DNA of 64,000 nt, from positions 1-64,000 of the forward strand of contig JABTUA010000003.1 in assembly GCA_015075635.1 (NCBI GenBank). The letters are read 5' to 3'. Of this stretch, positions 32,975-49,006 are shown piece by piece. The notes under the pieces were generated by a model. That model was not told the origin of the DNA. It ran no database searches and saw only the letters and a program-made list of their open reading frames with translations. This stretch comes from Polyangiaceae bacterium. GTDB lineage: Bacteria > Myxococcota_A > Polyangia > Polyangiales > Polyangiaceae. Numbering within the stretch: position 1 is the stretch's first letter; each line of letters begins with the position of its first letter. Made by a program: the position numbers and the translations under genes.

Positions 32975-35900
32975 TCACAGCTCCTTGAGCAGCGCCAGGA
33001 GGGCCCGCGCCTCTTCGCCGTCGGTGACCTCGACCAGCGCGCGGTTCACCTCGCACACGGCGTGAGCGGCCAGCACCGCGAGCGCACCCGAGTCTTGGCT
33101 GCCCGCGCGGAGCAGCTGACTGGCGGGCGCGGTGTTCGGGCTCAAGAGCAGCCGCTTGCCGTCTTCGTCGTAGCGCAGCGCGCGCTTGCTGCGGGTGGTC
33201 GCCACGCTCTCGACCGGGCCCCCGGTCAGCCCGAGGCCGAGCACCAGCGCGAGCAGCGCGCGATGCTCCGGCGCGCTGGACTCCACTGGAGCCGCACCGG
33301 TCAGGCTCCTGGTCAGCGCCTTGGTGAAGCGCTCCCACCAGGACGGCCCTTCGCTGATCGCCTCGAGGTCCGGGGGCGCGAGGTCCCGAGGCGCCTCGAT
33401 GGGCTCCGGCGGTGCGAGGTTTCGCGCGCCGGTCACCTCGCCCAGCGAGCGAAGGACGCCAGTCGGCGCGCGCGCGGCGAGCACCCGGACCAGCGCGGAG
33501 CCCTCCGGCAGGAAGAAGCGGGGCATCCCGGCGGGGAAGGCACCCTCCGAGAAGCCACGCCCGTCGCTGGTCCAGAGCGCACCGGCTCGCGCGAGCTCCG
33601 CGAGGACGCTGGCGACCTCGAGCGGGGATCCATCCGCGGCCACGAGCGCCGGAGCGGGTACGTCGAGCCCCAACAGGCGAAGCGACAGCGCGTGCTCGTC
33701 CAGGGTCGGCGTCTCCACGCCTCGCGAGCGCGCGTCGCGGACGAGGTCGGCGGCGACGCGGACACCGAACTCGTTCAACGAATCCCAGGTCTCCGAGAGC
33801 GTCTCCAGGTTGGAGAGTGTGGTCGCGATGTCCAGGGCGATGGCGTTCTTGCCTTCCGGAGCGCCGCCCTCCCAGCGCACGAGCAGGTCTCCCTCCAGCG
33901 GTAGGGCCGTGCCCAGGTGGGCGGCGTCGAGCCGGGCCTCGAGCGCGCGAACCATCGGGGCGGCGCGTTCGCCCATGTACACGCGCACCTTCGGCGCCTT
34001 TGGGAACGTCGTCCCGAGCCAGAGGCAGCCGGTGACGCGGAAGCCCCCGGCGGGCTCGTCCTCGAGCCAGCGGGCCGCGAGCGCGGCGCTCGGAGCGAAG
34101 GTACGCTCCAGCGCCAGACGCGCGACGTCGCGCGCGAGCCGGGCCAGGGGCGGCAGCACGTCGCGATCCGCCGGGCCCTCGAAGAAGCGATCCGGCACGA
34201 CGGAGTCGTCGTTCAGCGCCATCACGAGCGGCCAGCCCTCGCCGTCGGCCAGCTTGCAGAGCGGACGGCGCTCCACGAAGAGCGTGCCGCCGCGCGCGTC
34301 GGCTCGGGCTGGCGAGAGCACGCCGACCTCGCCGCTCACGCCCTCGGTCCGCACCGGCGCCGTGACGAAGCAGGCGGTGCGTTGCTCGGCGGTGAGCATC
34401 ACGGACGACAGCTGCGGAGCCGTGCGCCGGCGCTCCGCCTCCCGCGTCCGCTCGATCCGCCAGTCCACCTTGACCAGCTCGACTCCGCCGCGCAGAGCGG
34501 CGGCCTCCTGCTCCGAGAGCAGCAGCGTCGGGCGCTTCGCCGGTGGAAACGGCGGCTCGAGGGTGGTGTAGAGCCAGCGCGCCTCCGCCACCAGCCCGCC
34601 CAGGCTGTGCCAGTAGCCGCCGGTGTCCTCGAACACGGCCGCGGCGGCGAGCGAGTTCTCGTCGCGGAGCTCCGGGTGCAGGCAGAGCGCGCGTCGCGTG
34701 GCGTGACGCACGAAGGGCGGCAGCGAGTCGAGCGCGGCGGCCGCTCGCACCAAGAGTCGCCGGGCCGCGGCCTCGAGCTCCTGCGTCAGACGTGCCCGCA
34801 CCGCTCGGAGCTCGATGGCATCGACCCGCGCCACCGCCCGGAGCGGACACGACAGGTCCACTTCGAAGCTCTCGCTGCGGCCGTCGAGCAAGAGCACGCT
34901 CACGCTGCTGCTCGGCCCGCGCGTGAGCTCGAGCTCGCCATCGCCGGACGTCACGCCGAGCTCCCCGAGAGGCGCGCGCAGCGCCGGGTGGACCGGCACG
35001 CCGTCGAGCTTCGGTGCAGCCGCGGCTCCGCCGCCCCTCTGGCGTTGGAGGGCGGCGAGCGCTTGGCTCACGTCGGCGAGCTCGTAGCCGTGGCGGCCGA
35101 GCAGCGCGGTGAGCTGCGCGCCGAGATCGCCAGGCGGGAGGAACGCCACCGGCTGGTCGAGCTCCGACGGACGCTCCGCCGAGGCCAGCCACTCCGGGTA
35201 GCGTTCGGAGCCGAACAGGAGGCGGAGGCCGTTCGCCGCGAGCTCGCCGAGGGCGGCGCTACCGCCCTGGACCGTCGGGAAACGCAAGTGCGGTCCCTGG
35301 AAGAGCAGGCGCACGAGCTCGCCGGCGCCCAGATCGTGCAGCGCCAGACACAGGGCGAGCGCCCTGCCGTCCGAGAGCAGCAGGCCCTGCCGAGCGAGCG
35401 CCTGCAAGAGATCGAAGGACGCCTCGCGCAACATGCTGCCCACGCGTCCCAGCCCAGCTTCGCTGGGCGCCGAGAAGGCGACGAAGTCCGAAGCGCGTGT
35501 GGAGCTGACGTTCGCGACGATCGGCAGCCCGACCTGGCTCGGCCCGAGCAAGTGGATCGGTCGCCCCGCGAAGCAAAGGCTCACCCAGCCGACCCCGGGC
35601 GACAGCCCTGCGGGCGGGAGCGCCACCGCGACCTCGAGCTCGCCGAGGAGCTCCGCCGCTGGCCGCGCCGGGACGTGCTGGACCAGGTCACCAGAAGCGT
35701 GGCGCGTGTCCAGATCGCGGATCTCGCGCGCCGGGCTCGCCAGGAGCTGCTGCTTCTGGAGCTCCGAGAGAGCGCGCTCGCGGCGCTGGCCCAGCTCCGG
35801 AGCGCCGCTCACGGCCCGCGGGAAGAGCCGCGTCAAGAGGTCGCGCTCGCGCTCGCTGCGTACGAGCAGAGGCTGCCAGTCGCCCGTCGAGAAACCCGGC

Positions 35901-38596
35901 GCGGCGTCGAGCAACGGCACGCTCTCGCCGTGTCGCGCGGCAATCGACGCGATGGACCGCGCGCATGGCGCCCCTCTGTCGTCGAGCGAGCACAAGATCG
36001 GCAGCTTCTCGATGCGCTCGAGCAGCTGGCGCTGCTGAGCGTCGGTGGGGCGCTCCGGCTTCCCTGCACGCCCGGCGACGCGGGCGCGTAGGTTCAGCGC
36101 GCGTCCGAGCAAGCACAGGACGAGCGCGAGATCTTCGCCGGCCAGCGGCGACACCAGACCCAGGGCTCGTTGCGCTTTCAGATCGCCCTCCAGCGCGTCT
36201 ACCAGGCGCTCGACGAAGCGCTGCTCGAACCAGGACGGGAGGCGCTTCGGTTTGTAGTGGATGCCGTTCCAGGCGGCGTTCGGCACGGTCGCGGGATCGT
36301 CCATGGCCACGATCAGCGAGCTCAATCCGTCGTCGCGCGGGGTGCATGACAGAGCGACGCTCCGATGATGCTCGATGCTCGCTGCGAACACGGCCGGCGC
36401 GACGACCACGAGCGCACCTTCGCGCTCGAACCAGAGCTTCGCCGAGAGCGGGCTCAGCCCCTGGCGCACACGCTCGTCGGTGACGGCGCGCATCAGCGCC
36501 GCGCGGCGTCCTTCCGGCGTGTCCGTTCGCAGCGCGGCGTCGTCGTAGGGGATGCGCTCGACCTTGCCGTCCAAGAGCGCGAGGATGGCCTCCGTCTCCA
36601 CGCCGCCGACGATGACCACCGGGCGTCCGTCGGCGGCGGGTCGAGCGGGCGCGTCCCTGAGACGCGAGGCCACGCACAGCGCCTTGGTCTTCTCGGCGTA
36701 GGCAGCCAGGCTCGCTAGGCTCACGTAATCGCCGGCGACGCTGGGATAGATCGGCGCGCGATACAGCCGGACGAAGTCCCGCTGGAAGCGCTTCGCGAGC
36801 GGGGCGTTCTGACCGAGGCGAGCCGGCACGACGCTGTAGGCCGCGACCGCGTTGCGCAGCACCAGCTCGAGGGCGGCTCGCTCGGGCGCGGGCAGCGTCT
36901 CGAGCCGCTCCGCCGCGCGGTCCGCGATGCCGATGGCCGCGAGCGTCACGGCGTGCAAGGCCTGATTCAGTCGCGCGTCGCGCTCCACGCCGTCGTAGTC
37001 GAAGCGCGGCCGCAGCGCGCTCGGCCAGGCGATGGCCGCGTCGAACGCCAACGGACAGAAGCTCGGCTCGACGGGGATCGCCTCGAGCATGCGCTCTTCG
37101 ACGAAGACCCGGAGCAAGGACGGGCGGGTCGCGCCCGCCGGCAGCGGGGCGAGCAGCACCACCTCCCCGTGCAAACCCTGGGTGGTCCCCGAAGCGGTCG
37201 AGAAACTCTGCCGGAGGAGCTCGGCAGCCACCGGCGGCACCCGGGGCTCTCCCGGCGCGTGCGCCAAGAAGCGCTGGCGGCGTGCCGCGCCTTCCCGCGC
37301 GCGCTTCACCAGGCGCGCGGCGTCCTCGACGTCCATGTCGTCGAGCATTCGCTCCACGAAGTATCCGCGGAGCCACACCACGTCGGAGAGCCAGGGCGCG
37401 AGCTCCTCGGGCAGGTCCTCCTTGCTCCTCCAGACCCGCACCGGACGGCTCGAGAGCACCCGCCCGACCGAGACGCGCCCGCCGCCCGGAGAGTCGAACA
37501 GCGGCAGGTCGAACAGCGCGCGCACCTCGGGGTCGAGCTGGTGCCTGGCGCGGAGCGCTGCCGTCGCCAAGCACACCAGAGTGCCGAGCGAGGTGCGCCA
37601 GGCTTGCTCGGTGAGCGCCGGGGCCTCCACCCCCTCGGGCAGCGCTTCCCTCTGGGCGCGCGCCACCAACCCGGCGAGGAGCTTGCGAAAGGCGGCCTCG
37701 GCGGCCGGCAGGAGCTCGCGCGCCAGGGGCGAGTCTTCGCGCAGCGCCGAGCGAGATGCGTTGGTCGGCAGCTCGTCGGCATCGACGACCACGCGCACCG
37801 GCGCGGCCAGCCCTTCGGTGGCGCCCAGGCCGAGCAGGGGCGTCCAGCTCAGGGTCAAGAGGCGTACGCCGCGCTCCATCACGTCGATGCGGCACGGCGC
37901 GCCGGGCGCGCGGAGCTCCACGGCCGCGCGTCGCGCGAGCGGCAAGGTGAAGGGCACGCGAGCGAGGAGCGGGGGCTCCGGTTTGCGCGGCGCGGGACTG
38001 CCACCACACGAGAGCGCCAGCGGCGACTCGGCGGTGTGCTCGATCAAGAGCGCGACCTCGACCGGCACGCTGCTCGACACTGCGCGCTTGAGCACGTCGA
38101 GCCCCAGGCGCTTCTTGACGTGGACGTGAGTGCCGCGGGTGAACGCGTCCCTGGGCGGACTGCAACTCTTCGCCTGGAGCCCGAGGGGCTTGTCGCTCTC
38201 GTCGGCGAACAGCTCGGGGGTGAAGCGCACGGCGCACGCAGCGGCGTCGTCCGTGCTGGTCACGGTGACCGCTTCGGCGCCCAGGCCGAGCGCGGCGTTC
38301 ACCCCCAAGGCCAGCGAGCGCAGCGGCGCCGCGCGCTCGTCCTCGGCGTCGCTCAGCGCAAAGTCGAGCAAGCGCGCGAGCCGCTCGCCGGGCAAGGCCG
38401 GGCCGTCGAACGCGAACGCCACCTCGTCCGCGTCCCAGCTCACGTTCATCGCGCCGGCGCCCAGCGCGATGGCGGCGCGTGCGAGCTCGAGCGAGTAGCC
38501 ATGCAGATCCACGAGCAAGTGCTCGCGGAGCTTGGCGCGGGCGCGGCGTGCGTCCACGCGGATCGAGCCGCGCAGCACGACCCGCCGGCCGCTCAC
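32975..38596 (-). CDS. Giant protein (1,873 aa) with degenerate HSP90-like GHKL N-terminus
   Basis: 1,873 residues, ATGA overlap with the upstream HSP90-like gene, so the two are translated together. Residues about 25-130 align by eye with the N-domain of that partner, but key ATP residues are gone. The N-box ELxxN is ELARAAIALG (no Asn), the DxGxGM box is FDGPAL (Asp lost), and the glycine lid reads LALGVNAALG. Near residue 265, VRVVVDADELPTNASRSALR matches the middle-domain strand of the partner (VRVKISSSKLKHTLSRDNVR), where HSP90 has a catalytic Arg. The remaining 1,500 residues are alpha/beta with several GEVxLL...LxVxxExRxL-type modules (about 480, 1430 and a weaker one). No signal, TM or enzyme motif seen. 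Not recognised; a multi-module pseudo-HSP90 scaffold is my best description. Confidence 0.85.
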   Translation of the reverse strand: MSGRRVVLRGSIRVDARRARAKLREHLLVDLHGYSLELARAAIALGAGAMNVSWDADEVAFAFDGPALPGERLARLLDFALSDAEDERAAPLRSLALGVNAALGLGAEAVTVTSTDDAAACAVRFTPELFADESDKPLGLQAKSCSPPRDAFTRGTHVHVKKRLGLDVLKRAVSSSVPVEVALLIEHTAESPLALSCGGSPAPRKPEPPLLARVPFTLPLARRAAVELRAPGAPCRIDVMERGVRLLTLSWTPLLGLGATEGLAAPVRVVVDADELPTNASRSALREDSPLARELLPAAEAAFRKLLAGLVARAQREALPEGVEAPALTEQAWRTSLGTLVCLATAALRARHQLDPEVRALFDLPLFDSPGGGRVSVGRVLSSRPVRVWRSKEDLPEELAPWLSDVVWLRGYFVERMLDDMDVEDAARLVKRAREGAARRQRFLAHAPGEPRVPPVAAELLRQSFSTASGTTQGLHGEVVLLAPLPAGATRPSLLRVFVEERMLEAIPVEPSFCPLAFDAAIAWPSALRPRFDYDGVERDARLNQALHAVTLAAIGIADRAAERLETLPAPERAALELVLRNAVAAYSVVPARLGQNAPLAKRFQRDFVRLYRAPIYPSVAGDYVSLASLAAYAEKTKALCVASRLRDAPARPAADGRPVVIVGGVETEAILALLDGKVERIPYDDAALRTDTPEGRRAALMRAVTDERVRQGLSPLSAKLWFEREGALVVVAPAVFAASIEHHRSVALSCTPRDDGLSSLIVAMDDPATVPNAAWNGIHYKPKRLPSWFEQRFVERLVDALEGDLKAQRALGLVSPLAGEDLALVLCLLGRALNLRARVAGRAGKPERPTDAQQRQLLERIEKLPILCSLDDRGAPCARSIASIAARHGESVPLLDAAPGFSTGDWQPLLVRSERERDLLTRLFPRAVSGAPELGQRRERALSELQKQQLLASPAREIRDLDTRHASGDLVQHVPARPAAELLGELEVAVALPPAGLSPGVGWVSLCFAGRPIHLLGPSQVGLPIVANVSSTRASDFVAFSAPSEAGLGRVGSMLREASFDLLQALARQGLLLSDGRALALCLALHDLGAGELVRLLFQGPHLRFPTVQGGSAALGELAANGLRLLFGSERYPEWLASAERPSELDQPVAFLPPGDLGAQLTALLGRHGYELADVSQALAALQRQRGGGAAAAPKLDGVPVHPALRAPLGELGVTSGDGELELTRGPSSSVSVLLLDGRSESFEVDLSCPLRAVARVDAIELRAVRARLTQELEAAARRLLVRAAAALDSLPPFVRHATRRALCLHPELRDENSLAAAAVFEDTGGYWHSLGGLVAEARWLYTTLEPPFPPAKRPTLLLSEQEAAALRGGVELVKVDWRIERTREAERRRTAPQLSSVMLTAEQRTACFVTAPVRTEGVSGEVGVLSPARADARGGTLFVERRPLCKLADGEGWPLVMALNDDSVVPDRFFEGPADRDVLPPLARLARDVARLALERTFAPSAALAARWLEDEPAGGFRVTGCLWLGTTFPKAPKVRVYMGERAAPMVRALEARLDAAHLGTALPLEGDLLVRWEGGAPEGKNAIALDIATTLSNLETLSETWDSLNEFGVRVAADLVRDARSRGVETPTLDEHALSLRLLGLDVPAPALVAADGSPLEVASVLAELARAGALWTSDGRGFSEGAFPAGMPRFFLPEGSALVRVLAARAPTGVLRSLGEVTGARNLAPPEPIEAPRDLAPPDLEAISEGPSWWERFTKALTRSLTGAAPVESSAPEHRALLALVLGLGLTGGPVESVATTRSKRALRYDEDGKRLLLSPNTAPASQLLRAGSQDSGALAVLAAHAVCEVNRALVEVTDGEEARALLALLKEL

Positions 38597-40302
38597 CCCA
38601 TACCTCCGGCGTAGTCCTTGGCCAGGGCGTCGTTGACCCGCGCCTCGAGCGGGCCGCGGCGCGCCAGGAGCAGCATCCGCGCGAGCAGCTGTGCCGTGGC
38701 GCGGAGCCGGCGCTTGGCTCGATCACGCGCGACTCTCACGGGCTCGGTGCGGCAGTCGAGCAGGAGCACCGCCCCGCGGCCCCAGCGCTGGGTGGCGCGC
38801 GTGGCTGCTTCCACCGAGACGATGCCGTGGGTGGGCGCGCGGGCGAGCACCAGGTCGTGAGGAGCCGCGCCGTAGGCTCGCGCGAGCGTCACGCGTTCGA
38901 CCACCGTGCCGCTGACGCCGATGCAGCGCCGGACCTCCTCGAGCAGGGCCAAATCCGTGGCGGAGAGCTCGCCGGGCGCGAGCTCGGCGACCAGCATGTG
39001 GCGCTCGTAGGCGGGCTCGACGCGGCGCCCGCCGCCGCCGCGCAGCGCGGCCAGGCGCCGCACCACGTCGGCGTGCGGACAGAGCACGACCGGACGCCCC
39101 GTGGCGGCGAACGCCGCGCCGAGCGCGTCGGGCTCGGCCACCGTCAAGATGGGAGCGCGCCAGGGCGTGCGCGCGGCGATGTCTTTCGCCGACATCGCCC
39201 GCTGGTCGGCGATCGGGCTCGCTAGCGGGAACCACGTTCGGCTCGCACCGAGCGGGGCGGCGTCGCTGCCCGCCGCCGCGAGCAGCGCCAGGTAGAGCTT
39301 CGGGCTGTCGCCGGCCGCGACTGCCTCCGCCTGCGCTCTCAGCGCCTCTTCCACCGCGCCGGGCAGGCTTCTTCGTGCCAGCTCCCGAGCGCGCTCGAGC
39401 AGATCGTCGAAGGCCTGCTCGCGGCGCACGTTGTCGCGGGACAGCGTGTGCTTCAGCTTCGAGCTCGAGATCTTGACCCGAAGGCCCCCGAGTCCGGGAA
39501 ACTCCTCGGCGCTGGTCTCGAACAGCGTCAGGCCGCGATTGTAGAAGCCCGTGAACGAAGTGGCGTGCTCGTATGCCAGCGCGTGTGGTTCCGGCGGCAA
39601 GTGCTCGGCGCCCACGCCGGGCCCGAGCACGATGCTGTCCTCCCCGTCTACCTCGCTGACACTCACCGCGGCGTGGACCTGGAGCGGCGTGTCGAGCTGG
39701 GTGCGCGACGACCCCTGCGGGTTCGCGTAGTCCGTCACCGAGAGCCAGATGGGCACCCGGGCGTGCCGGCACCAGCGCAGGAGGCTCGCGCGCACTTGGC
39801 CCGCGTGCTCGTCGAATGCGCTCGACTCCATGGTCTGCGTCAGGGTCACGCTGGTACCCGAGAGCGGTCGCGGCGGGATCTCCTCGACGACGTAGGAGTG
39901 GTCGCGCTGGATGGTGGCTCGCCAGGCGCCGCCGTCGCGCCAGGTATCCACGATCACCGCGTCCGGGTCGATGGCCAAGACCGAGATGAAGCCGACGCCG
40001 TATTTCCCGATCATCGAGCCGTCGCCCTCCTTCGAGGACGAGAACAGCGTGAGCAGGGCGCTCTCGATGATCTCCGGCGTCATGCCAGACCCGCTGTCGG
40101 TGACCCGCGTGCGCGTGTCGCCGTCCGCGCTGCGGATCAGGTCCACCTCGATGCGCGTGGTGCCGGCGTCCATGCTGTTCTGCACGAGCTCGCGCAGGAA
40201 CGCGTAGGGGTCGGCGAACTGCCGCACCATCTCCGAGACCAGCCCCGGCTTGTCCCCGTCGCGCGGCGCGGGCCGGTCCTTGCGGGCGCGATAGGGGCTC
40301 AC
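38593..40302 (-). CDS. HSP90-like GHKL ATPase
   Basis: 569 residues from GTG 40302 (VSPYRARKDRP); the frame continues upstream but without a plausible start. The Bergerat ATP site is intact: FLRELVQNSMDAG (N-box, Asn42), TDSGSGMTPEI (G1, Asp69), IGKYGVGFISV (G2 lid), LSGTSVTLTQ (G3). A middle-domain-like part ends in SKLKHTLSRDNVRREQAFDD, with the Arg expected to contact ATP gamma-phosphate. HtpG itself is about 620 residues with a C-terminal dimer domain; here the C-terminal 250 residues differ (Ala-rich, many Arg). So it is an HtpG relative rather than HtpG. Operon partner: the giant protein just downstream. Confidence 0.88.
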   Translation of the reverse strand: MSPYRARKDRPAPRDGDKPGLVSEMVRQFADPYAFLRELVQNSMDAGTTRIEVDLIRSADGDTRTRVTDSGSGMTPEIIESALLTLFSSSKEGDGSMIGKYGVGFISVLAIDPDAVIVDTWRDGGAWRATIQRDHSYVVEEIPPRPLSGTSVTLTQTMESSAFDEHAGQVRASLLRWCRHARVPIWLSVTDYANPQGSSRTQLDTPLQVHAAVSVSEVDGEDSIVLGPGVGAEHLPPEPHALAYEHATSFTGFYNRGLTLFETSAEEFPGLGGLRVKISSSKLKHTLSRDNVRREQAFDDLLERARELARRSLPGAVEEALRAQAEAVAAGDSPKLYLALLAAAGSDAAPLGASRTWFPLASPIADQRAMSAKDIAARTPWRAPILTVAEPDALGAAFAATGRPVVLCPHADVVRRLAALRGGGGRRVEPAYERHMLVAELAPGELSATDLALLEEVRRCIGVSGTVVERVTLARAYGAAPHDLVLARAPTHGIVSVEAATRATQRWGRGAVLLLDCRTEPVRVARDRAKRRLRATAQLLARMLLLARRGPLEARVNDALAKDYAGGMG

Positions 40303-40481
40303 GGGCCTTTTCGTAGAGCGGTTTGTGCCGCGATGGAACACCGAGCTGGCCCGGCATGGTCCGGCCTTGCCGGCCTGTGTAAGCTCCCCGCCGCGTCCGG
40401 CGTTGCCGTCCCGGCACTGCCAGATTTCGTTCGAATCCTTTTCGTTTCTGATGCGTCTCTCTGGCGCACCAAGGACATCGC

Positions 40482-41957
40482 ATGACCCACGGAACATCTG
40501 CGCCTGGTTGGCGCGCGGCCGTCGTTCTCGCCGCGCTCACCCTTCCGGCCTGCGGCGGCAAAGGTCCCGAGCACGCCAAGAGCGATCACAGCGGCCCGGC
40601 CAAGGAGAGCAAGTCCACCGCCAAGGCGCGCGAGAAGGTGGCGATCACCGTCTACAACCAGAACTTCGGCCTGGTGCGGGAGATCCGCAAGCTCGATCTC
40701 GGGGAAGGCAAGGTGAGCCTGGAGTACCGGGACGTGTCGGCGCACATCCAGCCGGAGACGGTGCACATCAAGTCGCTGGAGGGCGAGGACGCGCTGGCGG
40801 TGCTGGAGCAGAACTACCGCTACGACCTGCTCAGCCCGCAGAAGCTGCTCGAGAAGTACGTGGACAAGAAGATCAAGGTCTACCGCTACAACGAGAAGCT
40901 CGGCCGCGAAGAGATGAAGGAGGCCAAGGTGCTGGCGGTGGAGCAGGGCACCGTGCTGGAGATCGACGGCGAGGTGACCTACGGCTTCCCAGGGCGCTTC
41001 GCCTTCCCGGAGGTGCCGGCGAACCTGATCGCGAAGCCCTCCCTGGTGTGGTTGCTCGGCAGCAAACGGGCGCAGCAGCGGGTGGAGGTCAGCTACCTGA
41101 GCCAGAACCTGAACTGGGTGGCGGACTACGTGATGGTGGTGGGCGCCGACGACAAGGTCGGCGACCTGAACGGCTGGGTGACGCTGACGAACCAGAGCGG
41201 CACGGACTACGAGAACGCCGAGCTGAAGCTGGTGGCCGGTGACGTGCAACGCGTGATGCCGCCGGCGAGCCCCGCGCCCGGGTACTACGCGCAGGCGGAG
41301 GCCTCCTCCCGGCCCCGCGAGCAGTTCAAAGAAGAGGGCTTCTTCGAGTACCACCTGTACACGCTCCAGCGACCGACGACGCTGCTGGACAAGGAGCAGA
41401 AGCAGGTGACCTTGCTGGAGGGTCACGACATCGGCATCGACAAGAAGCTGATCTTCTGGGGCGCCGAGTACTACTACCGGGGCAACTACGGGCAGGTGGT
41501 CAGTAACCAGAAGGTGGGCGTGTATATCGACATCAAGAACAGCGAGAAGAACCACCTGGGCATGCCGCTGCCGAAGGGCACGGTGCGGGTCTACAAGGCC
41601 GACAAGAGCGGGGCCAAGCAGTTCATCGGCGAGGACCGCATCGACCACACGCCGCGGGACGAAGAGATCCGCATCAAGATGGGCGAGGCGTTCGACGTGG
41701 TGGGGGACCGAAAGCAGATGGAGTGGAACGCCATCGGCAGCTGCACGTCGGAGAGCGCGTTCGAAATAGAGCTCCGGAACCACAAGGACACGGCCGAGAA
41801 GGTGGAGATCTACGAGCCCATCGGCGGCGATTGGGAGATGGTGCAGTCGAGCCATCCCCACGAGAAGAAGGACGCGCACACGTTCACGTTCACGGTGGAC
41901 GTACCGTCCCGCGGCAAGACCAAGGTCACTTACCGAGTGAGGGTGCGATGGTGCTGA
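40482..41957 (+). CDS. DUF4139-type lipoprotein, copy 1 (A)
   Basis: 491 residues. Lipoprotein signal ALTLPACGGK (lipobox LPAC), a charged KSDHSGPAKESKSTAKAREK linker, then a beta-rich domain starting VAITVYNQNFGLVREIRKL. GWVTLTNQSGTDYENAELKL followed by VAGDVQRV is the conserved block of DUF4139 proteins. The C-terminal half has KEEGFFEYHLYTLQRPTTL, KQVTLLEGHDIG and a C-terminal VTYRVRVRWC ending on Cys. Envelope-located, function unknown. First gene of a five-gene chain with 10-, 7-, 10- and 7-bp overlaps. The 179-bp upstream region is shared with the divergent HSP90-like gene. Confidence 0.87.
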   Translation: MTHGTSAPGWRAAVVLAALTLPACGGKGPEHAKSDHSGPAKESKSTAKAREKVAITVYNQNFGLVREIRKLDLGEGKVSLEYRDVSAHIQPETVHIKSLEGEDALAVLEQNYRYDLLSPQKLLEKYVDKKIKVYRYNEKLGREEMKEAKVLAVEQGTVLEIDGEVTYGFPGRFAFPEVPANLIAKPSLVWLLGSKRAQQRVEVSYLSQNLNWVADYVMVVGADDKVGDLNGWVTLTNQSGTDYENAELKLVAGDVQRVMPPASPAPGYYAQAEASSRPREQFKEEGFFEYHLYTLQRPTTLLDKEQKQVTLLEGHDIGIDKKLIFWGAEYYYRGNYGQVVSNQKVGVYIDIKNSEKNHLGMPLPKGTVRVYKADKSGAKQFIGEDRIDHTPRDEEIRIKMGEAFDVVGDRKQMEWNAIGSCTSESAFEIELRNHKDTAEKVEIYEPIGGDWEMVQSSHPHEKKDAHTFTFTVDVPSRGKTKVTYRVRVRWC

Positions 41958-43369
41958 AGAGAGTCTTGATCCTGGGCGTGCTCGCCATTACGCCCGCCGC
42001 GCTGGCCGGGCCGAAGAAGGTCTCAGGCAGCGAGCAGCGCAAGGAGGTGAGCATCACCGTCTACAACCAGAACTTCGGTCTGGTGCGCGAGGTGCGGGAG
42101 ATCGACGTCGGCACCGGCACGGTGGACCTGGAGTTCCGGGACGTGGCGGCGAACATCCAGCCGCAGACGGTCTCGATCAAGTCGCTCACCGGCGGAAATT
42201 CGCTGTCCGTGCTGGAGCAGAACTACCGCTACGACCTGCTCACGCCGCAGAAGCTCCTGGAGAAGCACGTCGGCAAGAAGGTGCGGGTCTGGCGCTGGAA
42301 CGAGAAGCTCGGCAAAGACGAGGCGTTCGACGCCGAGGTCCTGAGCGTGGCCGACGGCCAGACGGTGATGAAGATCAACGGCGAGGTCACCTACAACTTC
42401 CCCGGCCGTATCGCCTTCCCCAACGTGCCGGACAACCTGATGGCGAAGCCCACGCTGGTCTGGAAGCTGGACAGCAAGCAGGCAAAGCAGCAGGTCGAGG
42501 CGACGTACCTGACGCAGAACCTGAACTGGCGCAGCGACTACGTGTTCGTGATCAACGACGCGGACACGGCCGGCGATCTGACCGGCTGGGTCACGCTCAC
42601 CAACAACTCCGGCGCCGCCTACAAGAACGCCAAGCTGAAGCTGGTGGCCGGCGACGTGCAGCGAATCAGCGGCGGCGAAGACTACGAGTACGAGCGCGCC
42701 GCCAAGAAGTCCGCAGAAGCGCCGGCGCAGGACCGCTTCAGGGAAGAGAGCTTCTTCGAGTACCACCTGTACACGTTGCAGCAGCCGACGGACGTGCTGG
42801 AGAACGAGCAGAAGCAGGTGACGCTGCTCGAGGCGAAGAACGCCAAGGTGAAGAAGAAGCTCATCTACTACGGGCAGCAGTACTGGTACCGCGGCAAATA
42901 CGGCGAGGTGCAGAAGAACCAGAAGGTCGGCGTGTACCTCGACATCGAGAACGCCAAGGCGAACGGCCTGGGTATCCCGCTGCCGAAGGGTACGGTGCGG
43001 GTCTACAAGGCCGACAAGAGCGGGGCCAAGCAGTTCATCGGCGAGGACCGCATCGACCACACGCCGCGCGACGAGAAGGTCCGCATCAAGATGGGCGAAG
43101 CGTTCGACGTGGTCGGGGACAGGAAGCAGATGGAGTGGCGCACGCTCGGGGTGTGCACCTCGGAGAGCACCTGGGAGATCGAGCTCCGGAACCACAAGGA
43201 CAAGGCGAGTCGGGTGGAGGTCTACGAGCCCATCGGCGGCGACTGGACCATCATCGAGAGCACGCACAAGCACGACAAGAAGGACGTCTTCACCTTCACC
43301 TTCGACGTGGACGTGCCCGCCAACGGCAAGACCAAGATCAAGTACAAAGTGCGGGTGAAGTGGTGCTGA
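41948..43369 (+). CDS. DUF4139-type secreted protein, copy 1 (B)
   Basis: 473 residues. ATG 41948 overlaps the end of A by 10 bp. Signal peptide MVLKRVLILGVLAITPAALA (cleaved after ALA, no lipobox). Same fold as A (VSITVYNQNFGLVREVREID, NNSGAAYKNAKLKLVAGDVQ), but A and B have clearly diverged in the N-terminal half, so the A/B split is older than the duplication. Ends KIKYKVRVKWC, Cys-terminal like A. Probably partners A at the inner leaflet of the outer membrane; inferred from strict pairing. Confidence 0.86.
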   Translation: MVLKRVLILGVLAITPAALAGPKKVSGSEQRKEVSITVYNQNFGLVREVREIDVGTGTVDLEFRDVAANIQPQTVSIKSLTGGNSLSVLEQNYRYDLLTPQKLLEKHVGKKVRVWRWNEKLGKDEAFDAEVLSVADGQTVMKINGEVTYNFPGRIAFPNVPDNLMAKPTLVWKLDSKQAKQQVEATYLTQNLNWRSDYVFVINDADTAGDLTGWVTLTNNSGAAYKNAKLKLVAGDVQRISGGEDYEYERAAKKSAEAPAQDRFREESFFEYHLYTLQQPTDVLENEQKQVTLLEAKNAKVKKKLIYYGQQYWYRGKYGEVQKNQKVGVYLDIENAKANGLGIPLPKGTVRVYKADKSGAKQFIGEDRIDHTPRDEKVRIKMGEAFDVVGDRKQMEWRTLGVCTSESTWEIELRNHKDKASRVEVYEPIGGDWTIIESTHKHDKKDVFTFTFDVDVPANGKTKIKYKVRVKWC

Positions 43370-44817
43370 AGCGGGTGGGCGCGCTGGCCTTCGCGCTCGT
43401 GCTCGCCGCCTGCGGCGGCAAGGGGCCGGAGCACGCCAAGAACCAGGACGGCCCGGCGAAGGACAGCAAGTCGAGCGCGAAGCAGCGCGAGAAGGTCGCC
43501 ATCACCGTCTACAACCAGAACTTCGGGCTGGTGCGGGAGATCCGGAAGCTCGATCTCGGGGAAGGCAAGGTGAGCCTGGAGTACCGGGACGTCTCCGCGC
43601 ACATCCAACCAGAAACGGTTCACATCAAGTCGCTGGACGGCGACGACGCGCTGGCGGTGCTGGAGCAGAACTACCGCTACGACCTGCTCAGCCCGCAGAA
43701 GCTGCTCGAGAAGTACGTCGACAAGAAGATCAAGGTCTACCGCTACAACGAGCAGCTCGGGCGCGAGGAGATGAAGGAGGCCAAGGTGCTGGCGGTGGAG
43801 CAGGGCACCGTGCTCGAGATCGACGGCGAGGTTACCTACGGCTTCCCGGGGCGTTTCGCCTTCCCGGAGGTGCCGGCGAACCTGATCGCGAAGCCCTCGC
43901 TGGTGTGGCTGCTCGGCAGTAAGCGGGCCCAGCAGCGGGTGGAGGTCAGCTACCTGAGCCAGAACCTGAACTGGGTGGCGGACTACGTGATGGTGGTGGG
44001 AGCCGACGACAAGGTCGGCGACCTGAACGGCTGGGTGACGCTGACCAACCAGAGCGGAACGGACTACGAGAACGCCGAGCTGAAGCTGGTGGCCGGCGAC
44101 GTGCAGCGCGTGCAGAGCCAGGTGATGACGCTCGACGAGAGCGGCTTCGGGCCCAACGACGCCACGATTCGCACGCGGCCGAACTTCAAGGAAGAGGGCT
44201 TCTTCGAGTACCACCTGTACACGCTCCAGCGACCGACGACGCTGCTGGACAAGGAGCAGAAGCAGGTGACCTTGCTCGAGGGCCACGACATCGGCATCGA
44301 CAAGAAGCTGATCTTCTGGGGCGCCGAGTACTACTACCGGGGCAACTACGGGCAGGTGGTCTCGAACCAGAAGGTGGGCGTGTATCTCGACATCAAGAAC
44401 AGCGAGAAGAACCACCTGGGCATGCCGCTGCCAAAGGGCACGGTGCGGGTCTACAAGGCGGACAAGAGCGGGGCCAAGCAGTTCATCGGCGAGGACCGCA
44501 TCGACCACACGCCGCGGGACGAAGAGATCCGCATCAAGATGGGCGAGGCGTTCGACGTGGTGGGGGACCGAAAGCAGATGGAGTGGAACGCCATCGGCAG
44601 CTGCACGTCGGAGAGCGCGTTCGAAATAGAGCTCCGGAACCACAAGGACACGGCCGAGAAGGTGGAGCTCTACGAGCCCATCGGCGGCGACTGGGAGATG
44701 GTGCAGTCGAGCCATCCCCACGAGAAGAAGGACGCGCACACGTTCACGTTCACGGTGGACGTACCGTCCCGCGGCAAGACCAAGGTCACTTACCGAGTGA
44801 GGGTGCGATGGTGCTGA
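43363..44817 (+). CDS. DUF4139-type lipoprotein, copy 2 (C)
   Basis: 484 residues from GTG 43363 (overlap 7 bp with B). Lipobox VLAAC, KGPEHAKNQDGPAKDSKSSA linker. Nearly identical to A outside the leader and the linker 44113-44184 (VMTLDESGFGPNDATIRTRP versus MPPASPAPGYYAQAEASSRP in A). That shows either selection on, or fast loss of constraint in, this surface loop. C-terminal VRVRWC as in A. Confidence 0.87.
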   Translation: MLKRVGALAFALVLAACGGKGPEHAKNQDGPAKDSKSSAKQREKVAITVYNQNFGLVREIRKLDLGEGKVSLEYRDVSAHIQPETVHIKSLDGDDALAVLEQNYRYDLLSPQKLLEKYVDKKIKVYRYNEQLGREEMKEAKVLAVEQGTVLEIDGEVTYGFPGRFAFPEVPANLIAKPSLVWLLGSKRAQQRVEVSYLSQNLNWVADYVMVVGADDKVGDLNGWVTLTNQSGTDYENAELKLVAGDVQRVQSQVMTLDESGFGPNDATIRTRPNFKEEGFFEYHLYTLQRPTTLLDKEQKQVTLLEGHDIGIDKKLIFWGAEYYYRGNYGQVVSNQKVGVYLDIKNSEKNHLGMPLPKGTVRVYKADKSGAKQFIGEDRIDHTPRDEEIRIKMGEAFDVVGDRKQMEWNAIGSCTSESAFEIELRNHKDTAEKVELYEPIGGDWEMVQSSHPHEKKDAHTFTFTVDVPSRGKTKVTYRVRVRWC

Positions 44818-46229
44818 AGAAGGTTCTCGTTCTGGCTGTCCTCGTCGTGGCGCCGGCGGCTCTCGCCGGACCGAAGAAGACCTCGGGCAGCGAGCAGCGC
44901 AAGGAGGTGAGCATCACCGTCTACAACCAGAACTTCGGTCTGGTGCGCGAGGTGCGGGAGATCGACGTCGGCACCGGCACGGTGGACCTGGAGTTCCGGG
45001 ACGTGGCGGCGAACATCCAGCCCGAGACGGTCTCGATCAAGTCGCTCACCGGCGGAAATTCGCTGTCCGTGCTGGAGCAGAACTACCGCTACGACCTGCT
45101 CACGCCGCAGAAGCTCCTGGAGAAGCACGTCGGCAAGAAGGTGCGGGTCTGGCGCTGGAACGAGAAGCTCGGCAAGGACGAGGCCTTCGACGCCGAGGTC
45201 TTGAGCGTGGCCGGTGGCCAGACGGTGATGAAGATCAACGGCGAGGTCACCTACAACTTCCCCGGCCGCATCGCCTTCCCCAGCGTGCCGGACAACCTGA
45301 TGGCGAAGCCCACGCTGGTCTGGAAGCTGGACAGCAAGCAGGCCAAGCAGCAGGTCGAGGCGACGTACCTGACGCAGAACCTGAACTGGCGCAGCGACTA
45401 CGTGTTCGTGATCAACGACGCGGACACGGCCGGCGATCTGACCGGCTGGGTCACGCTCACCAACAACTCCGGCGCCGCCTACAAGAACGCCAAGCTGAAG
45501 CTGGTGGCCGGCGACGTGCAGCGGGTCAGCGCCCGGGACGACTACCGCTACCCCACGGGCGGAGCCCGGGCCAAGGCCGAAGAAGGCGCCACCGGGTTCA
45601 AGGAGGAGGGCTTCTTCGAGTACCACCTGTACACGTTGCAGCAGCCGACGGACGTGCTGGAGAACGAGCAGAAGCAGGTGACGTTGCTCGAGGCGAAGAA
45701 CGCCAAGGTGCAGAAGAAGCTCATCTACTACGGGCAGCAGTACTGGTACCGCGGCAAATACGGCGAGGTGCAGAAGAACCAGAAGGTCGGCGTATACCTG
45801 GACATCCAAAACACGAAGCAGAACGGCCTCGGCATGCCGCTACCGAAGGGCACGGTGCGGGTCTACAAGGCCGACAAGAGCGGGGCCAAGCAGTTCATCG
45901 GCGAGGACCACATCGACCACACGCCACGCGACGAGAAGGTCCGCATCAAGATGGGCGAGGCCTTCGACGTGGTCGGGGACAGGAAGCAGATGGAGTGGCG
46001 CACGCTGGGCGTCTGCACCTCGGAGAGCACCTGGGAGATCGAGCTCCGGAACCACAAGGACAAGGCGAGTCGGGTGGAGGTCTACGAGCCGATCGGCGGC
46101 GACTGGACCATCATCGAGAGCACGCACAAGCACGACAAGAAGGACGCCTTCACCTTCACCTTCGACGTGGACGTGCCCGCCAACGGCAAGACCAAGATCA
46201 AGTACAAGGTGCGCGTGAAGTGGTGCTGA
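44808..46229 (+). CDS. DUF4139-type secreted protein, copy 2 (D)
   Basis: 473 residues, same length as B, 10-bp overlap with C. Signal peptide MVLKKVLVLAVLVVAPAALA. Near-identical to B except the linker 45528-45596 (ARDDYRYPTGGARAKAEEGA versus GGEDYEYERAAKKSAEAPAQ) and scattered substitutions. Closes the second duplicated unit. Confidence 0.86.
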   Translation: MVLKKVLVLAVLVVAPAALAGPKKTSGSEQRKEVSITVYNQNFGLVREVREIDVGTGTVDLEFRDVAANIQPETVSIKSLTGGNSLSVLEQNYRYDLLTPQKLLEKHVGKKVRVWRWNEKLGKDEAFDAEVLSVAGGQTVMKINGEVTYNFPGRIAFPSVPDNLMAKPTLVWKLDSKQAKQQVEATYLTQNLNWRSDYVFVINDADTAGDLTGWVTLTNNSGAAYKNAKLKLVAGDVQRVSARDDYRYPTGGARAKAEEGATGFKEEGFFEYHLYTLQQPTDVLENEQKQVTLLEAKNAKVQKKLIYYGQQYWYRGKYGEVQKNQKVGVYLDIQNTKQNGLGMPLPKGTVRVYKADKSGAKQFIGEDHIDHTPRDEKVRIKMGEAFDVVGDRKQMEWRTLGVCTSESTWEIELRNHKDKASRVEVYEPIGGDWTIIESTHKHDKKDAFTFTFDVDVPANGKTKIKYKVRVKWC

Positions 46230-46948
46230 AGCGGGTCTTGCTCGCGGGCGTGCTCGTGGCTGCCTGCGGGCCCCCGTCGCCGCCGTCGCCCCCGGGGCCG
46301 CCGGCGACGACCACTGCCGTGCCGCCGCCCGTTGCGGGCACGGCGCCGGAGGTGGCGGCGCCGGAGCGCTCGTCGCTCTCGTGTGCGACCCCGCTGCCGG
46401 AGGCGCCCAGCCTGCCCCCCGCCGATCCGAGGGCCGCACCGGTCAGCGCGGGGCAGATGAGCGAGGAGGCGGCCCAGGCCAAGCGCCTGTTCGACGGCGA
46501 GCGCTGGCCCGAGGCGATCAGCGCGATGGAACGGGTCGTCTCCGGCGCCAGCGGCGACGACGCCGGCAACCGCGAGCTCGCGGAGTACCACCGCGCGGTC
46601 GCCCTGTACCGGGCCGGGAGCGCCGACGACGCGGCGAGCGCGTTCTTGCAGATCGCGTCACGCCCCGCGCACCTGAAGCACACCGAGACAGTGCTCTGGA
46701 TCGCCAAGCTCGCGGAGGCGACGCCGGTGGTGGTGCACGGGCTCCGGCACTACGACGGCAAGATCGCCGCGCGCTTCCAGAACGCCCAGCAGATGGAGAC
46801 CTACCAGACCCTGCTGTTCCTGTTCGGGCGCGAGCGCCTCGCTCGCGGCGCGAAGGCCGAGGCGGCGGCGTTCTTCGAGCAGGTGCCCGCCGAGAGCCGC
46901 TTCCGCGCGCTCGCGGCGGAGTGCGAAAGGCTCGCCCAGGGGCGCTGA
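46223..46948 (+). CDS. Lipoprotein with TPR-like repeats, last gene of the DUF4139 array
   Basis: 241 residues from GTG 46223, 7-bp overlap with D, using the same GTGGTGCTGAAG junction as C. Lipobox VLVAAC, Pro-rich linker (PPSPPSPPGPPATTT), then helical TPR-like repeats: AKRLFDGERWPEAISAMERV, ELAEYHRAVALYRAGSADDA, QTLLFLFGRERLARGAKAEA. A likely protein-protein scaffold for the array products. Not paralogous to the other four genes. Confidence 0.78.
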   Translation: MLKRVLLAGVLVAACGPPSPPSPPGPPATTTAVPPPVAGTAPEVAAPERSSLSCATPLPEAPSLPPADPRAAPVSAGQMSEEAAQAKRLFDGERWPEAISAMERVVSGASGDDAGNRELAEYHRAVALYRAGSADDAASAFLQIASRPAHLKHTETVLWIAKLAEATPVVVHGLRHYDGKIAARFQNAQQMETYQTLLFLFGRERLARGAKAEAAAFFEQVPAESRFRALAAECERLAQGR

Positions 46949-46951
46949 GGT

Positions 46952-49006
46952 CTACGGCAGGCTGGCGAGCGCGACGTTGTTCAGGGACGTGCCGCCGATG
47001 GCCACCGGCGTGCTCCAGGTGCTTCCCACCAGCCGCGAGTGGTAAGCGACACCGTCGCTCTCGATGAAAGCGACCTCCGCGCTGGCGGTGCCGACGCCCT
47101 TGGCGACCGCCGGGGAGGAGGTCGAATTCACGTTCGGCGACGAGAGCCCCGCCGGCGCCGACCAGCTGCCGCTGGCGAAGAAGGACAGATAGAGCTTGCC
47201 ATCGGTGCCCTTGAAGGCGAGCACGGCGCCGCCGCTCGGCAAGGCGGCGAGCGACGGTCGCGCGGCGGTGCTGGCGCCGGTGATGTCGGCGGGGCTCGAC
47301 CAGGTGCCGCTGGTGCGGGTGGCGTAGCGTAGCTGCCCGCCGCCGCTCTGGGCGTACACCAGGAGCAGCTCTGGCCCGCTGCCGAGGGCGACGACGGCCG
47401 GGATCACGTTGTGCTCCATGCTGCCGGAGATCGAGACCGGCGTCTGCCAGGTGCCCGAGGCTCGCTCGTCCACGTACAGGTCGTTGCTGGCGTCGCCGTT
47501 CGCGTAGGCCACGAAGGTGCTGGTGCCGACGCCGGCGAGCTCCGCCGCGTTTGGCCCGAACTGGTGGCTGCCGCTGGGGCCGACGGGCTCGACGCTGGAC
47601 CAGCTGCCGGAGTGAGTGGCGAAGTAGTACTTGAAGTCGGTGCCCTGGAACACCAGCTGCGCGCTCGTGGCGCCGCCGACGATGGCGGGACGTGAGCGCG
47701 TCGTGATGCCCGCGCCGACGTTGGCGAGCGCGCCCCAGCCGCTCGTGCTCCAGGTCGAGTACTGGACCGCTTCGTCGTTCGTGTCACCAGAGGCGGTGAA
47801 GCGCACTGCAGCGATGGCCGACGTGCCGCCCACCGTCGCGATGGACATGCCGTCCACGGACTTGCCGCTGAGGCTGCTGGTGGCCCAAGCCCCGCCGGCG
47901 ACGAGCTGACCGCCGAGCACGCTGCTCGCATTGCCCACCACGGCGAGCACGGTGGGGCAGAGCGGGCACGAGCCGCCGCAGTCCACGCCGGTCTCCGTTC
48001 CGTTTTGCACGTTGTCCGTACAGCTCGGCGCGCTGCAGGTGTGGCTCGTCGTGTCGCAGACCAGGGACGTGCACTGGCTGCCGCTGTTGCACTCCACGCA
48101 GTTCCCTCCGCCGTCGCAGAACTTTCCGCCGCCCTCGGTACACACCGTGTCCAGCGTCTTGTCCGAATGAGACGGCACGCCGGCGGTGCAGAGGTCGTTG
48201 GTGCACTCCTTGTTGTCGTTCGGCGTGTCGGTGTCGTCGGTCTGGGTGCTCACGACGCCGGCGCCGTCGCACATCACCTTCTTGCAGTCGCCGGCGGTCT
48301 GCTGGGGCGAGGGCCCGGCGGCGACGAAGTCCATGCCGCAGGTGTTCGACAGGCAGGTCCGCGTCTGACAAGCGTTGTCCTGGCCCGGACACTCCGACGC
48401 CGCGGTGCACCCGCCGGTGCCACCGGTCCCACCGGTTGCGCCGCCAGTACCGCCTGTCGCGCCACCGGTCCCACCGGTTGCGCCGCCAGTACCGCCTGTC
48501 GCGCCACCGGTCCCACCGGTTGCGCCGCCGGTGCCGCCGGTCGCGCCACCGGTCCCACCGGTAGCGCCGCCAGTACCGCCCGTGGCGCCACCGGTCCCAC
48601 CGGTAGCGCCGCCAGTACCGCCGGTGGCGCCGCCAGTACCGCCCGTGGCGCCACCGGTCCCACCGGTACCGCCGCCAGTACCGCCGGTCGCGCCGCCGCT
48701 GCCCGCGGCGCCGCCGCTGCCCGCGGCGCCGCCGCTGCCGGCAATGCCACCGCTGCCAGCGCTGCCAGCGCTGCCAGCGCTGCCGCCGCTCCCAGCGCTG
48801 CCGCCGCTGCCACCACCACCGCCGCTGCCGCCGGTGCCACCGCTGCCACCGGTGCCACCGCTGCCGCCCGTGCCGCCGGTCGCGCTTCCCGCAGCGCCGC
48901 CGCTCGAGTCGATCTGGTCTCGATCGACGGAGGTGATGAGCGAGCAGCCGAACAGCGGCAGCGTTGCACAGGCGAACAGACCGGTACGGACGAGCGAAAG
49001 GCGCAT
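46952..49006 (-). CDS. Very long Gly/Thr-linker lipoprotein with Cys-rich and beta-propeller-like domains
   Basis: 684 residues. Lipobox LFGC. Residues about 35-200 are Gly-rich, including a 7-residue tandem repeat (GGATGGT). A Cys-rich region follows (ECPGQDNACQTRTCLSNTCG, VECNSGSQCTSLVCDTTSHT, CGGSCPLCP) similar to eukaryote-like disulfide-rich modules common in myxobacterial surface proteins. The last 330 residues repeat a beta-blade pattern, each with an SGxWSxP-type turn (SGSWSSVEP, SGTWQTPVSISG, SGTWSSPADITG, SGSWSAPAGLSS, GSTWSTPVAIGG). That suggests a PLL/fucolectin-like propeller, so carbohydrate binding is a reasonable guess. Convergent with the DUF4139 array, 3 bp apart. Confidence 0.82.
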   Translation of the reverse strand: MRLSLVRTGLFACATLPLFGCSLITSVDRDQIDSSGGAAGSATGGTGGSGGTGGSGGTGGSGGGGGSGGSAGSGGSAGSAGSAGSGGIAGSGGAAGSGGAAGSGGATGGTGGGTGGTGGATGGTGGATGGTGGATGGTGGATGGTGGATGGTGGATGGTGGATGGTGGATGGTGGATGGTGGATGGTGGATGGTGGTGGCTAASECPGQDNACQTRTCLSNTCGMDFVAAGPSPQQTAGDCKKVMCDGAGVVSTQTDDTDTPNDNKECTNDLCTAGVPSHSDKTLDTVCTEGGGKFCDGGGNCVECNSGSQCTSLVCDTTSHTCSAPSCTDNVQNGTETGVDCGGSCPLCPTVLAVVGNASSVLGGQLVAGGAWATSSLSGKSVDGMSIATVGGTSAIAAVRFTASGDTNDEAVQYSTWSTSGWGALANVGAGITTRSRPAIVGGATSAQLVFQGTDFKYYFATHSGSWSSVEPVGPSGSHQFGPNAAELAGVGTSTFVAYANGDASNDLYVDERASGTWQTPVSISGSMEHNVIPAVVALGSGPELLLVYAQSGGGQLRYATRTSGTWSSPADITGASTAARPSLAALPSGGAVLAFKGTDGKLYLSFFASGSWSAPAGLSSPNVNSTSSPAVAKGVGTASAEVAFIESDGVAYHSRLVGSTWSTPVAIGGTSLNNVALASLP
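48412..48695 (-). repeat. Coding tandem repeats, 21/42 bp (GGATGGT)
   Basis: About 13 copies of a 21-bp unit in two alternating variants (42-bp higher-order period), in frame with the lipoprotein. No spacers, so not CRISPR. Candidate for length variation of the stalk. Confidence 0.85.

Follow-up and report, generated by a model that had tools for sequence, protein, structure and literature searches.

DUF4139 (PF13598) and DUF4140 (PF13600) are protein families without an assigned function. Herein, we describe an array of four DUF4139 genes (A–D) followed by gene E in the window, i.e., the whole analysed stretch of 64,000 nucleotides from a Polyangiaceae genome. In a Pfam search, all four proteins scored above the PF13598 cut-off (35.0–36.6 bits against 31.8), the likeness residing in their C-terminal halves. 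DUF4140 was matched by 53 of 94 relatives at E values up to 1, the matches of B and D being below the cut-off. The MuiA family (TIGR02231, 'mucoidy inhibitor') matched weakly over about 60 residues, with 14.7 bits for A and 12.7 for C against a cut-off of 112.6, and no match was reported for B and D; thus, the array proteins are not members. Among the open literature mentioning DUF4139, we found nothing titled on the gene pairing described below.

Two further systems offer points of comparison. Adjacent same-strand genes with short overlaps, coupled by termination-reinitiation, often encode heteromers: subunits of heteromeric complexes are over-represented among such genes, the overlap couples their translation, and a distance of about 20 nt nearly abolishes this coupling (PMC10666635). 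The array likewise consists of adjacent overlapping genes on one strand; however, its overlap is 10 nt instead of the common 4 or 1, appears to be set by how the upstream protein ends and is not kept in relatives. The second system is Ost1 (ribophorin I), a subunit of the eukaryotic oligosaccharyltransferase (OST), whose luminal part comprises two beta-rich domains and which binds glycosylated peptides (PMC7226087). An AlphaFold2 model of B built from a 94-sequence alignment (pLDDT 88.7, against 33 from a four-sequence alignment) is mostly beta with short helices, combining the DUF4139 C-terminal half with a DUF4140-like N-terminal part. Seven Foldseek matches to this model fell below E 0.001, all of them to chains from entries of OST complexes and aligned over most of the length, the best having an E value of 6.6e-6 at a TM-score of 0.14; unrelated beta-rich proteins came behind them. 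We took these chains for Ost1 from their length, the rows themselves giving no names. With TM-scores of 0.12–0.16, 9–11% identity and no sequence-profile match, the likeness may serve as a fold lead only, and we claim no kinship. At E 10, the 94-sequence profile matched nothing among the PDB sequences, Ost1 included, and sequence searches of solved structures returned no relative. With VIA-align, the matches were middling ones to beta-sandwich proteins only (best Z 8.5, for glycoside hydrolase entries), and Ost1 did not appear among the 50 entries listed; we draw no function from these matches.

Layout of the array

The genes are arranged as follows:

Gene A, 40482..41957, + strand: DUF4139 lipoprotein, lipobox LPAC; PF13598 36.6 bits
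Gene B, 41948..43369, + strand: secreted DUF4139 protein, signal peptide end AALA; model pLDDT 88.7
Gene C, 43360..44817, + strand: copy of A, lipobox LAAC; 91.6% nucleotide identity to A
Gene D, 44808..46229, + strand: copy of B, signal peptide end AALA; 92.7% nucleotide identity to B
Gene E, 46220..46948, + strand: lipoprotein with weak TPR similarity, outside the conserved unit

The gene order, the alternation of lipoproteins (A, C) with signal-peptide proteins (B, D) and the DUF4139 identity of the four genes were all as the original prediction had described them, and the DNA identities mark C and D as copies of A and B. A and B share 73.7% of their DNA and are full-length paralogues, both carrying the invariant residues of the family. 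The predicted distance of 2,860 bp between the stops of A and C and between those of B and D is also exact; since B and D both measure 1,422 bp, the two equalities count as a single fact.

Gene E had been read as a TPR lipoprotein closing the array. It is a lipoprotein gene overlapping D by 10 bp, but its TPR matches are sub-threshold (best 16.3 bits against a cut-off of 32.7) and it is not conserved in the genus. In the congener G002, similarity to the next gene of the window resumes 26 bp past the last DUF4139 stop, E being absent there, and in the congener G001 no match to E was found behind the array. Over about 157 residues, E shares 43% identity with a segment of a 620–675 aa reading frame located elsewhere in this genome and in congeners (six genomes). 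Judging from these sequences, E is not part of the pair unit.

Two divergent genes lie upstream on the − strand, one encoding an HSP90-like ATPase protein that weakly resembles sacsin domains (38593-40497) and the other being a very long ORF of 1,873 aa (32975-38596). The downstream gene (46952-49006, − strand) carries a long Gly/Ala/Thr-rich repeat (GGATGGT...) behind a lipobox-like start and matched no Pfam family. The top DUF4139 match of the genome (124.6 bits; G000:C3:254069-255073) is located elsewhere and is not an array gene. A, B and E had no match in a defence-system library, and a viral collection held no relatives of the array proteins, so that no phage link was seen.

Gene junctions and the protein C-terminus

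The four junctions read as follows:

A/B overlap, 41948..41957, + strand: ATGGTGCTGA, the Trp-Cys-stop codons of A
B/C overlap, 43360..43369, + strand: GTGGTGCTGA
C/D overlap, 44808..44817, + strand: ATGGTGCTGA
D/E overlap, 46220..46229, + strand: GTGGTGCTGA

Neighbouring genes thus share 10 bp at every junction, and a second in-frame GTG gives the alternative of 7 bp, in agreement with the predicted overlaps of 7 or 10 bp. Almost all family genes of Polyangia and Gemmatimonadota end in (R/K)-W-C-stop, encoded by TGG-TGY and usually TGA. Read in a different frame, TGG-TGY-TGA becomes NTG-GTG-YTG-A, which offers a ready start codon if TGG is preceded by A or G. The same protein end is equally present in single genes with no family member behind them. 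The reuse of junctions noticed in the original prediction is real, but the letters repeat because the C-terminal Trp-Cys-stop of the protein is conserved; the recurrence of ATGGTGCTGA and GTGGTGCTGA is mainly a by-product of this end, carrying no independent signal.

Such evidence bears directly on the further claim that the overlap enforces equal synthesis of A and B, and on the idea that it was selected for equal amounts through termination-reinitiation. Short overlaps are indeed enriched among heteromer subunits and couple translation (PMC10666635), and the identical ATGGTGCTGA overlap recurs at three loci of relatives (L043, L045 and L050). However, the overlap letters are the Trp-Cys-stop codons found in single genes too, and in L042, L048, L051, the first pair of L057, L163 and L165 the second gene starts +1 to +58 nt past the stop, so that neither overlap nor very short spacing is conserved across relatives; extra B-type copies also occur in L047 and L049. 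The gaps in relatives argue that the overlap is not what enforces equal synthesis, and we consider selection for equal amounts unlikely. Translational coupling within the window is plausible; given these gaps and the loss of coupling at about 20 nt (PMC10666635), it would not be a conserved property of the pair.

The conserved end also includes a cysteine. Among 94 family members, the only conserved cysteines are Cys403 and the C-terminal Cys473:

Cys403 codon of B, 43154..43156, + strand: likely partner of C-terminal Cys473 (43364-43366)

Both residues are present in 63 of the 94 proteins and both are missing from the other 31, the final Cys always being accompanied by Cys403; this co-occurrence amounts to one clade difference and not to many independent events. 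Since the two cysteines occur together, a Cys403–Cys473 disulfide is likely.

Pairing and co-duplication among relatives

A scan of named genomes yielded 79 loci. A relative at E 1e-50 was present in 20 of 377 genomes of the phylum, and the unit is therefore patchy there. In Polyangia-type Myxococcota the genes come in pairs, the lipoprotein gene leading and that of the secreted protein following in all 16 readable loci besides the window. Two lipoboxes at these loci were read by eye, and the B protein of L044 was flagged as a possible lipoprotein but has a later AVA cleavage site. Three lineages have duplicated the pair as a whole: in tandem in the window and as two dispersed pairs per genome in L039/L041 and L045/L050, each on two contigs of one MAG, with both members duplicated. 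Five genes stand in L057, and the extra B-type genes of L047 and L049 are unpaired and lie beside pairs. No conserved neighbours were found around the Polyangia pairs, which makes the pair itself the unit.

Gemmatimonadota, NC10, Rokubacteria, Binatia, Omnitrophota and others had one copy in the stretch seen. Unpaired genes, which the original prediction had regarded as evidence against it, count against it in other phyla, where the gene is single, but not in Polyangia, and the conserved A/B pairing was confirmed for the latter. In the phylogenetic tree, the A and the B proteins of the window family each formed a clade of their own, with SH-aLRT values of 98 and 97, and the AU test did not reject a topology uniting the A proteins of every lineage (p 0.24). 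The lipoprotein-type genes of L047 and L057 grouped with B-type genes, and A/B identity may have been partly overwritten there or may have arisen more than once. Overall, the pairing of A and B is, by comparison of the loci, real and old. We would also like to comment on L093, a record titled Klebsiella pneumoniae: its DUF4139 gene and that of a Deltaproteobacteria MAG group together, with end branches of 0.015 and 0.035, and the record is probably a mislabelled bin.

Signal peptides occur throughout the family, and in other phyla two recurrent neighbourhoods were seen:

ECF sigma, zinc-finger anti-sigma, DUF4139 gene, in this order: L117:4185-7379, L083:7336-10422 and L089:301-3455, NC10/Rokubacteria-type genomes
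ABC-2 type ATPase and permease, then directly the DUF4139 gene: L097:7144-10440, L100:7074-10368, L106, L108 and L115, Binatia

A zinc-finger anti-sigma gene (PF13490) lay upstream of the DUF4139 gene in 13 loci, mostly of NC10 and Rokubacteria, being directly adjacent in most, and in the six of these loci where an ECF sigma gene was detected it preceded the anti-sigma gene. Such neighbourhoods point to an envelope-related role.

What the two members of a pair do together can be pictured in two ways. Most likely, A and B are periplasmic or outer-membrane partners, A providing the anchor in the membrane and B being soluble; that the two form an anchored/soluble complex is the best-backed guess, with chances a little below even. 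Alternatively, A and B might each do their work alone, as an anchored and a free form of one protein, linked by the operon only and forming no complex. Both being full-length paralogues with the invariant residues of the family fits this second picture, as do the single-gene relatives of other phyla, which need no such partner. The strict lipoprotein-first order and the threefold co-duplication of the whole pair speak against it, and we regard it as somewhat unlikely.

Near-identical cores and divergent loops

The copies are nearly identical in protein except for the signal peptide and one loop of 29–30 codons:

Hypervariable loop of A, 41253..41339, + strand
Hypervariable loop of B, 42665..42751, + strand: model pLDDT about 50–56
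Hypervariable loop of C, 44110..44199, + strand
Hypervariable loop of D, 45525..45611, + strand: matches the loop of the congener G001

Around the loop, the core dS was 0.21 before and 0.04 after it for A/C and 0.06 before and 0.16 after it for B/D, against 0.8–1.3 in the loop and signal peptide. The loop dN/dS was about 0.6–0.9, not above 1. Core DNA of B and D is 96–98% identical, either being 88–91% identical to G001. Sites grouping B with D against G001 number 107 in the core and 16 in the loop; those grouping D with G001 number 18 and 24, respectively (core versus loop, Fisher p 5e-8). In the syntenic place, the last B-type gene of G001 has a loop resembling that of D (VSGGFDRRAPTGGLRAKSEEG versus VSARDDYRYPTGGARAKAEEG), the loop protein scores being 62 for D and G001 and 26 for B and D.

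Since the loop of D matches that of the congener, the duplication probably predates the species split; with the congener arrays in broken assemblies and the G001 copy frameshifted, this age depends on a single loop of about 28 residues. The contigs of both G001 and G002 end within the array, as one would expect at repeats. In L132 (contig C201 of G001), the last B-type gene shows a deletion and a frameshift, being either a real pseudogene or an assembly error in the repeat. Were the duplication recent, the loops and signal peptides would have to have been replaced or changed rapidly after the species split. The core identity of B and D, closer to each other than either is to the congener, is what such a history would leave; the uneven dS between blocks, its very high values in the loop and signal peptide, the match of the D loop to the congener and the breaks inside the congener arrays all speak against it, making a recent duplication rather improbable.

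The A/C and B/D cores look instead as if they had been homogenised by gene conversion, an aspect that is new here. Duplication ahead of the species split, with later conversion of the cores, is the most economical history. The case for conversion is built on the contrast between blocks and on the comparison with the congener; the longest identical runs in the core blocks were not unusual and play no part in it. As to A-to-B conversion within a pair, a 77-bp identical stretch was suggestive, but the clustering of identity between A and B was not significant (p 0.07), and the idea was dropped.

It is tempting to suppose that the loop is a specificity determinant, e.g., in cell-surface recognition, kept diverse by selection against conversion tracts that carry it. 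The loop escapes in both A/C and B/D with both flanks homogenised, and other copies within one genome show the same contrast (the A genes of L039/L041, 90% amino acid identity against 36% in the loop). However, its dN/dS is not above 1, it is a low-confidence region of an otherwise good model, and it evolves faster also between the single-copy relatives L060 and L064 (94% against 68% in the loop), as a relaxed linker would. Thus, relaxed constraint suffices for the divergence of the loop, and we deem selection for diversity rather improbable. The fuller version, in which the A–B pair is a surface recognition module, conversion keeping the scaffold uniform and selection keeping the loops different, is more speculative still; if true, one cell would have several distinct recognition proteins.

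Overall, we favour, with reasonable though not high confidence, the following account. The array would have arisen long ago by tandem duplication of an envelope unit of two genes, in which a lipoprotein and its secreted paralogue are made from closely spaced genes. The last-residue Cys of each protein would probably be tied back to Cys403 by a disulfide, which would fix the Trp-Cys-stop codons; these offer an NTG start in a different frame, where downstream genes may have repeatedly started. Conversion after the duplication would have maintained the likeness of A to C and of B to D, and the signal peptides and one disordered loop would have escaped it and kept their old differences. The unpaired B-type copies of L047 and L049 and the grouping of the L047 and L057 lipoprotein-type genes with B-type genes weigh against this account.

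The array illustrates that an eye-catching 'reused' gene junction can arise merely from a conserved protein end. For a very conserved (about 50% identity between phyla) and uncharacterised envelope protein family, it also provides testable handles: the fixed pairing of anchored and secreted members, a disulfide that probably secures the C-terminus, a loop that evolves fast and the ECF-sigma/anti-sigma neighbourhood in other phyla.
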